Of a stretch of DNA of 36,562 bases, positions 34,938 through 36,562 are shown piece by piece; the stretch's first letter is position 1; each line of letters begins with the position of its first letter. Made by a program: the position numbers and the translations under genes. The DNA comes from a bacterium (GTDB taxonomy: Bacteria > UBP6 > UBA1177). Under the pieces are notes generated by a model. It made no database searches. It saw nothing but the letters and a program-made list of their open reading frames with translations, and was not told the DNA's origin. Location: NCBI GenBank assembly GCA_017405875.1, contig JAFQZM010000013.1, positions 65,709-102,270 on the forward strand. Reading direction: 5' to 3'.

Positions 34938-35903
34938 ATGAAAAAATCCTTTTTATTTCCGCTTTTTTTCGCAGTTTTTTTCTCTCTCAACTCGTGCATT
35001 GCAATGAAAAATGATGTTGACATGGCAAAAACGGAACTTCGCGCCGAAACTACTGCCAAAATGAAAATCCTTGAAGAGAACGTAACAAAAAACGTGACTC
35101 AGACTCTTAAAGATGAAGTGGCAAAACTGAACGCGCGTCTTGACGAAATCGAAAAAACGCAGCAGACCGAAAAGCAGATGCAGAAAAACAAAATTGACCT
35201 TTCTTTCAATAATCTTGAAGAGTTACGTGAAACCATCAAAGAGCTAAACCAGAGAATCGACAACGTTGATATGACGGCGCAGAAAAATTCTCTTCTTTCC
35301 GAGCAGATAACCGCTCTTGAGAAAAAAATCGCTGAAAACGAGACGGAACTCGCTCTGCTGAAAGAAAATATGAATTCGCAGATAGAGAACCTTAAACCGG
35401 TAGACAAATTCACCGTGACGAAAGAAGGAATCGTCCGACTTCCCGAAAGCGAATCAAAAAGCTACAATCAGCTTGTCGAATACACTAAAAGCGAAAACTG
35501 CGATCCGGCAATCGCGAGAAAAGCATGGGAAACTTACTCGGAGAAATGGTCCGAAAGCAGAAAGTGCGACGTGACCTTCTGGATCGGCGAAACATACTAC
35601 ATGGAAAAAAGCTACAACAAAGCAATAGAGACGCTGCAGCCCATCGAAAAAACCTATCCGGGATGCCCGAAAATAGAACGCAGCTACCTTCACATCGCCT
35701 TTTCGCTTTTTCACATCGGCAAAGTCGAGGTTGCAAACGCAATTCTTGAAAGCATGAAGCAGAAGTTCCCGCAGCCGGCTTTCCCCGATGAAGTAAAAGA
35801 ACTTGAAAAACTCATAAATTCAAAAATGCCGAAAAAAGCTGCTCCTGCAAAAAAGGCTCCGGCAAAACAGCAGACAAAAACACCGGCTAAAACCAAAAAA
35901 TAA
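34938..35903 (+). CDS. CpoB/YbgF-like coiled-coil TPR lipoprotein
   Basis: 321-residue lipoprotein: signal MKKSFLFPLFFAVFF, lipobox LNSC with C20. Residues about 25-160 are a long coiled coil rich in Glu/Lys/Asn (e.g. LDEIEKTQQTEKQ, ELNQRIDNVD, ITALEKKIAENETEL). About 175-290 are TPR-like repeats (VTFWIGETYYMEKSYNKAIET, SYLHIAFSLFHIGKVEVANAI), the CpoB/YbgF order, a Tol-Pal partner that links peptidoglycan synthesis with outer-membrane constriction. The tail is a Lys/Ala/Pro-rich stretch (KKAAPAKKAPAKQQ) that could bind wall polymers or nucleic acid. E. coli CpoB is periplasmic, not lipidated, and no tol/pal genes adjoin, so the name is by architecture only. SD TAGGAGAT. Confidence 0.75.
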   Translation: MKKSFLFPLFFAVFFSLNSCIAMKNDVDMAKTELRAETTAKMKILEENVTKNVTQTLKDEVAKLNARLDEIEKTQQTEKQMQKNKIDLSFNNLEELRETIKELNQRIDNVDMTAQKNSLLSEQITALEKKIAENETELALLKENMNSQIENLKPVDKFTVTKEGIVRLPESESKSYNQLVEYTKSENCDPAIARKAWETYSEKWSESRKCDVTFWIGETYYMEKSYNKAIETLQPIEKTYPGCPKIERSYLHIAFSLFHIGKVEVANAILESMKQKFPQPAFPDEVKELEKLINSKMPKKAAPAKKAPAKQQTKTPAKTKK

Positions 35904-35937
35904 TCTGAAAATTTCCTGAAAACCGCCTGAAAAAGGC

Positions 35938-35945
35938 AAAAAAAA
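35938..35945 (-). terminator. U-run after tRNA-Asn
   Basis: Eight consecutive Ts on the minus strand directly after the encoded CCA; the tRNA acceptor/T-arm hairpin could serve as the terminator stem. Confidence 0.4.
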
Positions 35946-36021
35946 TGGCTCCTCGTGACGGACTTGAACCGCCGACCTAGTGGTTAACAGCCACCCGCTC
36001 TACCGACTGAGCTAACGAGGA
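35946..36021 (-). tRNA. tRNA-Asn (GTT)
   Basis: Minus strand, 76 nt with encoded CCA. Acceptor TCCTCGT / ACGAGGA pairs fully, discriminator G. The D-arm GCTCAGTCGGTAGAGC and T-loop GGTTCAAGTCC are canonical; the T stem has one G-U pair. The anticodon loop CTGTTAA gives anticodon GTT, so it reads AAC and AAU. The promoter TTGACT-N16-TATACT lies about 50 nt upstream. Confidence 0.97.
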
Positions 36022-36066
36022 ACCTCAAAAAAATTGGATCGAATGTAACGAACTCAAACGGGCGGG

Positions 36067-36094
36067 AGTATACACTTGGGAAAACAATAGTCAA
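36067..36094 (-). promoter_or_regulatory. Promoter of tRNA-Asn
   Basis: Minus strand TTGACT (36094-36089), 16-nt spacer, TATACT (36072-36067), then the GC-rich discriminator CCCGCCCG typical of stable-RNA, stringently controlled promoters. An A/T-rich run upstream (36095-36115) could be an UP element. Confidence 0.75.
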
Positions 36095-36194
36095 ATAAAA
36101 TCTTTTATTTTTTTGTGATATTGCAAATTTTTCAAGAAAAAACAAATAGTTACCACTAAATTTGTCTTTGTTTTCAACTTAACCGCATGAGGGC

Positions 36195-36220
36195 AAAAAA
36201 AATCCCCCGTTGCCGGGGGA
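36195..36220 (-). terminator. Strong rho-independent terminator of a minus-strand transcript
   Basis: Minus strand TCCCCCG, loop GCAA, CGGGGGA, then TTTTTTTT. The 7-bp GC-rich stem, the stable tetraloop and eight Ts make this the clearest terminator in the window. The only transcript it can serve comes from positions above 36220. Confidence 0.87.
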
Positions 36221-36480
36221 CTGCCGTTTGAGTATTACAACATAACCTGAGGGGGATCTTAATTATCAAAAAACACGTTTATTTAGTTCCACCAAGTGCC
36301 GATTTTTCTGACTCAAAAATGAACTTTTTTTGAAAAAAGTGAATAGGTCGCGATTTTTATTGATAAATTTTTACGTGTTTTTTTGAGGGATTCTGCCGCT
36401 CATAATGCCTAATAAGGTAAAAATCCTGAAATTCGCGTTTTTGAATAGCCAAAACACAAAAACTTGCCTTTCTTTCCACA
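36195..36480 (-). ncRNA. Candidate structured non-coding RNA, about 285 nt
   Basis: Bounded by the promoter at 36487-36515 and the terminator at 36195-36220; no open frame longer than about 16 codons with an SD. Predicted helices, 5' to 3' in the RNA: (1) GUUUUUG/CAAAAAC, 36463-36457 with 36443-36437; (2) GGAUU/AAUCC, 36426-36422 with 36392-36388; (3) a 13-bp long-range helix with one bulge, UCAAAAAAACACGU (36386-36373) with ACGUGUUUUUUGA (36278-36266); inside it hairpins (4) 36340-36323 and (5) 36320-36302; (6) the terminator stem. I recognise no known family; tmRNA, RNase P, SRP and 6S landmarks were not seen. Many pairs are A-U, so folding alone is weak proof; promoter plus terminator are the stronger evidence. 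Confidence 0.5.
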
Positions 36481-36486
36481 TTCCGT

Positions 36487-36515
36487 ATCATAACGCGTTT
36501 TTGATTTTTTAACAA
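36487..36515 (-). promoter_or_regulatory. Promoter of the candidate ncRNA
   Basis: Minus strand TTGTTA (36515-36510), 17-nt spacer, TATGAT (36492-36487); initiation expected near 36480. Confidence 0.68.
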
Positions 36516-36562
36516 AGAGGCTTGTTATAAAGTGAATATGGTTTTTGCGAATCAAGAATCAA

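Follow-up and report, generated by a model that had tools for sequence, protein, structure and literature searches.

RoxS and IsrR are C-rich small regulatory RNAs (sRNAs) that are independent of Hfq. Other sRNAs have been described at the 3′ ends of mRNAs: in the sections of PMC9438474 drawn on here, CpxQ is an Hfq-dependent, 3′ end-derived sRNA from cpxP, of which its region is the most conserved part, and MicL, DapZ and ArgX represent a type that lies at an mRNA 3′ end and has its own promoter, located inside the coding gene in the case of MicL and DapZ; MicL is sigma-E-dependent and represses Lpp synthesis. The window analysed here is a stretch of 36,562 nt from a bacterial genome of the phylum UBP6 (G000, contig C5, positions 65709-102270), and its final base is the final base of the contig. 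Near that end, upstream of a tRNA-Asn gene, lies a region that we read as the remnant of the transcription unit of a lost small-protein gene, the conserved tail of which is most likely a small regulatory RNA; on the strength of sequence comparison, we would give this reading a probability of roughly 0.6.

The tail is a segment of ~60 nt on the minus strand (36195-36255; CCCCCU(C/A/U)AGG at its start, a terminator and T8 at its end), a candidate sRNA that forms the 3′ untranslated region (UTR) of a small gene in those relatives that carry an open reading frame (ORF) at this place. The mean pairwise identity of 36195-36254 over nine genomes was 0.970, compared with 0.616 for the adjacent spacer, 0.827 for the neighbouring gene, and 1.0 for the tRNA. 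In an alignment of nine rows that spans the lipoprotein gene through to the promoter element, it ranked tenth of 251 sliding 60-nt windows, behind nine that overlap tRNA-Asn, and in the 1.3 kb compared tRNA-Asn alone was more conserved. Of the structured RNA of ~285 nt proposed in a preliminary description of this DNA, the conserved RNA thus makes up no more than the last ~60 nt. The segment ends in the intrinsic terminator which that description had recognised and which we confirm on the minus strand at 36222-36201, with a stem of 9 pairs (6 G-C), a GCAA loop, and a tract of 8 T extending to 36195 (36195-36202, U in the RNA).

A covariance model of the segment, run on 28 genomes of the phylum, found one strong copy in each of nine (91-102 bits). 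The next best match scored 32.2 bits, and the weak matches at or below this score were set aside, the two that were read, in L066 and L067, each having the GCAA loop on an otherwise ordinary terminator. The strong match was missing from 6 of the 15 genomes of the genus, five of which are <90% complete (the sixth, G014, is 97% complete). Single-base insertions or deletions among the nine rows exclude a peptide in the segment, which upholds the earlier statement that coding content is absent, and no support was found for two mechanically called ORFs (52 and 48 aa) that overlap the region. Within the terminator stem, seven of eight aligned pairs never vary across the nine rows and one changes from G-U to A-U in a single row; none of the 13 predicted pairs of the RNA has changed on both sides, because its sequence hardly varies. 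The three RNAs of 69-84 nt that we tested fold weakly better than shuffles (z -1.4 to -1.8). At gathering score, Rfam 15 returned nothing but tRNA in the window, and likewise in seven related loci, in line with the earlier remark that no known family fits; sub-threshold matches in 36022-36562, such as Yfr10 (the best, E 0.25) and a Phe leader (E 0.43), were judged to be chance. Among publications on UBP6 and the rumen, 3′ UTR-derived sRNAs, the origin of sRNAs by gene decay, and dual-function RNAs that lose their frame, we found none whose title or opening of the abstract treats this RNA.

The relatives reveal that the region is composite. A BLAST search with it placed leader and terminator ~275 nt apart in six relative loci, and the ~275-nt insert is an ORF of ~86 aa (MSFKCECCGGGESLEIRK...) with a ribosome-binding site. 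Ten of 12 relative loci were used, the distant L039 and L040 being left out. The ORF stands between leader and terminator in six of the nine aligned rows (L029, L030, L031, L034, L037, and L038); the window, L032, and L035 (genomes G000, G006, and G013) keep leader and terminator and lack the ORF, and L033 and L036 have neither leader nor terminator at the corresponding place. The alignment of the nine loci puts the junction at which the Cys-rich ORF of the relatives (86 aa in L031) is missing at 36263-36265 on the minus strand. A protein search of 28 phylum genomes recovered the ORF in 6 of the 15 genus genomes, on the contigs of this locus, and in three of the four family genomes from other genera, also close to tRNA-Asn, and did not find it in the window's own genome. 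Given this distribution, loss here is the simpler direction of change, and most simply the ORF was ancestral and disappeared from the window's genome. The lost protein may be described as small, Cys-rich, and zinc-ribbon-like; two such proteins scored 17.8 and 17.2 bits against CpXC (PF14353), the nearest Pfam family, for which the cut-off is 25.4, and NCBIfam and solved structures gave nothing firm.

The number of losses was approached through single-gene trees. That of the lipoprotein gene, built on 11 rows, joins G013 to G001 (0.959) and G006 to G010 (0.937) and places G000 poorly (0.383). In that of AHCY, which holds 6 rows only, G000 pairs with the ORF-bearing G010 (0.803) next to G006 (1.000), so that an ORF-bearing genome sits between two ORF-less ones. 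The ORF-less junctions of G000 and G006 are nearly alike, and that of G013 is different. We consider it likely, if not proven by trees that are themselves weak, that the ORF was lost twice or more.

Across the six ORF-bearing rows, identity was 0.957 for the RNA, 0.884 for the ORF, and 0.631 for the spacer, and the best 60 columns within the ORF (0.936) stay below the RNA. In the three ORF-less rows, the RNA differs at 0, 1, and 1 of 60 positions and the spacer at 25, 35, and 36 of 84, indicating that conservation of the RNA continues without the ORF. It could be argued that these 60 nt are a well-kept terminator and a 3′ UTR acting in cis, through protection of the mRNA or insulation of tRNA-Asn, with no activity in trans, a possibility that we regard as unlikely. 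A strong intrinsic terminator does close the segment just upstream of tRNA-Asn, and no targets emerged: the exact complement TAACCTNAGGGG was found solely in the RNA gene itself (one site in each of 9 of the 15 genomes), and duplex energies with eight regulon leaders were no better than those of shuffles (44 to 185 of 200 as good). However, invariance extends through the ~30 nt that precede the hairpin to about the same degree as in the hairpin itself, the segment is nearly unchanged in the three genomes that have no ORF, and identity is just 0.719 in the short interval that separates the lipoprotein gene from tRNA-Asn and that may contain a terminator as well.

The pattern in the ORF-less genomes also bears on whether promoter and terminator are a decaying relic, left by a recent deletion of the ORF and devoid of present function. 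This we find improbable; the ORF is cleanly missing, and the near-identity of the G000 and G006 junctions is compatible with a recent event, yet G013 has a different junction and stands elsewhere in the lipoprotein-gene tree, and all three genomes retain 59-60 of the 60 RNA positions next to a spacer that differs at 25-36 of 84. It is more improbable again that the 60 nt act as DNA, in the form of a binding or integration site. Invariance without covariation would also be expected of a DNA site, but the segment is present as one strong copy per genome, is 60 nt long, has a terminator with a U tract at its end, and has the same promoter element before it in each of the nine rows.

This element, GTCAGAAAAAT-N13-AACTAAATA (36280-36312, minus), of which the window holds a copy with no mismatch, belongs to a promoter-like family. 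Its pattern occurs at nine places in the window's own genome with ≤3 mismatches (none for the reversed control) and at 85 places in 13 of the 15 genus genomes with ≤2 mismatches (none in controls). We read 36 distinct sites, part of these 85, at the fixed spacing that the pattern imposes. A ribosome-binding-like site and an ORF lie within 200 nt at 32 of the 36; 28 of these ORFs start with a hydrophobic signal-like stretch, the other four are the small Cys-rich gene, and 16 of the 32 have a lipobox-like motif, shares of secreted proteins that may be too high given that the choice of ORF favoured ATG, hydrophobic, and lipobox starts. Named by eye, the linked genes presumably include VWA-like, serpin-like, and Cys-rich ones. 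The rule yielded no ORF at four sites, namely the window, the same locus in G006 (L124), L127, and L091, the last of which has a short lipoprotein-like frame behind it. At the locus, the core of the element does not stand out in conservation (identity of 0.845 across the nine rows, and of 0.883 for core and leader together in the six rows with the ORF), and a conserved AT-rich block, ACTTTTTTnAAAAAAAGTTCATTTT, lies upstream of it in the alignment (36316-36340, minus). Judged by motif position, 36280-36312 is likely a regulon promoter found mostly ahead of genes for secreted proteins and lipoproteins; it may be read by an alternative sigma factor, and transcription is predicted to start a few bases downstream, at ~36273.

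Under the reading that we prefer, a remnant unit with a regulatory RNA at its end, what is left would be this promoter, a short leader, and the conserved 3′ end with its terminator (36195-36255). In relatives, the Cys-rich gene lies between leader and 3′ end and the conserved RNA is its 3′ UTR; in the window, with the ORF gone, the promoter would directly yield an RNA of ~75-80 nt, a non-coding transcript that most likely ends at the terminator at 36222-36201. Its predicted layout, a leader remnant, UCCCCCUCAGG, a nearly invariant and mostly unpaired stretch, and the terminator, is the build of a base-pairing sRNA, in which the C-rich stretch (UCCCCCU) and the nearly invariant ~25 nt would form the pairing region and the terminator hairpin a stabilising 3′ end. 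A search for Hfq (PF17209) that recovered it in 5 of 14 known genomes used as a control detected it in none of the 15 genomes of the genus, and thus the best-studied mechanism seems unavailable and a C-rich, Hfq-independent mode more likely. Like RoxS and IsrR, the RNA would be short, and its C-rich motif could bind G-rich ribosome-binding sites by base pairing; RoxS and IsrR belong to other phyla, and the window RNA has no Rfam match. We suggest tentatively, and at less than even odds, that a stand-alone sRNA gene was born here when an mRNA lost its coding part, an event that probably took place two or more times in the genus, with the promoter of a surface-protein regulon and the 3′ UTR sRNA kept. 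The cells would then have retained the RNA in preference to the protein, and the RNA would be a non-coding arm of the regulon in a genus without detected Hfq. If so, a rumen lineage that is uncultured would have an RNA family not described before, and nature would have set up an experiment in which what one mRNA does as RNA is separated from what it does through its protein, with relatives that have both and genomes that have the RNA alone. Most of the named relatives of the adjacent lipoprotein gene derive from metagenomes of the rumen.

The segment resembles CpxQ, as presented in the same sections of PMC9438474, in lying in the 3′ UTR of a small protein gene, sharing the terminator of that gene, and being more conserved than the ORF. 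An ORF stands directly upstream in six of the nine rows (not in the window), the terminator is common to both, conservation of the 3′ UTR exceeds that of ORF and flanks, and the segment is non-coding. Unlike CpxQ, which those sections describe as Hfq-dependent (PMC9438474), it occurs in a genus in which Hfq was not found, and three genomes have the promoter directly before the RNA with no parent ORF; a sequence relation to CpxQ was judged through Rfam as a whole. With MicL, DapZ, and ArgX it shares putative transcription of its own at an mRNA 3′ end, here from the promoter of a secreted-protein regulon, but in contrast to MicL and DapZ as covered there, this promoter would be the former promoter of the mRNA, brought close by the absence of the ORF (PMC9438474).

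That the region instead encodes one structured RNA of ~285 nt, running from TTGTTA/TATGAT hexamers to the terminator as the preliminary description had it, now seems scarcely tenable: hexamers, inverted repeat, and terminator all exist, but the 5′ third belongs to a dispersed promoter unit of the plus strand, which of the nine aligned rows just the window and L034 have at the locus, the 289-nt stretch has a folding energy of z = -0.72 (51 of 200 shuffles fold as well), and covariation does not rise above shuffles. The 13-bp long-range inverted repeat is there, with 11 perfect pairs, or 13 with a one-base bulge; over the nine aligned loci, however, the covariation score of the 13-pair stem was reached by 195 of 500 shuffles, and its paired cells amounted to 87.2% versus 86.8% in shuffled alignments. 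The stem scored above versions slid by 1-3 columns (0.197 versus at most 0.132), which is usual for a structure derived from one member of the alignment. A scan of 35000-36562 gave four promoter-like sites (2.0 ± 1.4 in shuffles) and four terminator-like sites (2.2 ± 1.7 in shuffles); with counts so near the shuffle level, a promoter or terminator pattern alone says little.

The TTGTTA-N17-TATGAT hexamers do occur on the minus strand (36515-36487, 9 of 12 matches), but, judged by their copies across the genus, they are a dispersed plus-strand unit seen from behind. This unit (36457-36562, plus), with TTGCCT-N16-TATCAT at 36464-36491 leading into GAATCAA heptamers at the contig end, has many matching places in the genus genomes, from which 22 copies including that of the window, some near-identical to one another, were picked for comparison. 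Most have a plus-strand TTGCCT-N16-TAT(C/T)AT followed by ACGCGTTTTTGATTTTTTGAGGAG or similar, often with GAATCAA/G heptamer arrays. A minus-strand -35 hexamer starting with TTG is present in one of the 22 (the window only) and a plus-strand TTG in 20, and the minus -10 is the plus -10 read in reverse. Match counts to 12 consensus bases are alike on both strands (minus 5-9, plus 6-9), so it is the -35 and the conservation around it that favour the plus strand. Two copies (L106 and L107) stand directly ahead of plus-side ORFs, that behind L106 being recognised by eye as what we take to be SmpB, and several others stand 100-190 nt ahead of one. The GAATCAA/GAATCAG arrays vary in length among the units (window 36457-36562 and L092-L111), several of which lie at contig ends, and where an array separates a promoter from its gene, phase variation could result. 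As this case illustrates, a promoter match that is in fact a dispersed element read on the wrong strand can put the 5′ end of a predicted RNA far from its true place.

A different RNA lies beside tRNA-Asn, on the other strand and divergent, in eight genomes of other genera from two families of the order (G015-G018 and G020-G023; L047:1380-1455, plus strand, and also L048, L049, L053, L054, L055, and L073). It is made up of a GTGGAT/C hairpin, CATTCCCCTCCCACCCC, AGATAT, and a G-C-rich terminator, and has tRNA-Asn beside it in seven of eight loci, the eighth being at the locus end. Its covariance model, R2, was run with stricter filters on 146 genomes and matched strongly in eight (69-99 bits, one per genome, with further weaker matches of 26-45 bits in G020 and G023); weak matches in ten genomes outside the phylum (~27 bits or less) were taken for chance. 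The model found nothing in G019, G024, or the three genomes of the fourth family, and nothing at E ≤ 0.01 in the 15 genomes of the window's genus; L074 did not yield the exact C-rich motif, and L047-L049 had no Rfam match. For two copies, the predicted fold is far more stable than those of shuffles (z -5.3 and -5.8), and the terminator stem covaries, with 6 of 10 pairs changed on both sides among six sequences; the 5′ hairpin hardly varies. Homology with the window RNA was rejected, local alignment being no better than shuffles (304/500 at full length, 182/500 without the terminator), and with no significant similarity this second C-rich RNA appears unrelated.

The tRNA-Asn of the window (gtt; 35946-36021, minus; an Rfam match at gathering score) lies 173 nt from the terminator and has its own promoter-like site, TTGACT-N16-TATACT, in agreement with the preliminary description, which had given 174 nt and a separate tRNA promoter and had held that the transcript is not a tRNA leader. 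In the leader of tRNA-Asn, GAGTTCGTTACA (36044-36061, minus) is kept in all nine aligned rows. Pairing between this leader and the RNA was considered and rejected: 10 perfect bases, overlapping the start of GAGTTCGTTACA, exist in the window and are kept in four of the nine rows, the other five having 4-6 bases, with no compensating change. The leader motif was likewise rejected as a multi-copy target, with one exact place and 17 in all compared with 14 for the reversed control. A phage origin was set aside, as a comparison with 50,697 phage records gave nothing at E ≤ 1e-5. Convergent with tRNA-Asn is the lipoprotein gene (34938-35903, plus), which resembles YbgF/CpoB (TIGR02795, E 3.9e-11, below the cut-off). 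On the upstream side, G000 and G010 (L034) have in common a rearranged neighbour, to which the matches of query 1-298 belong, at the place where most other relatives have the gene for a 750-aa membrane protein.
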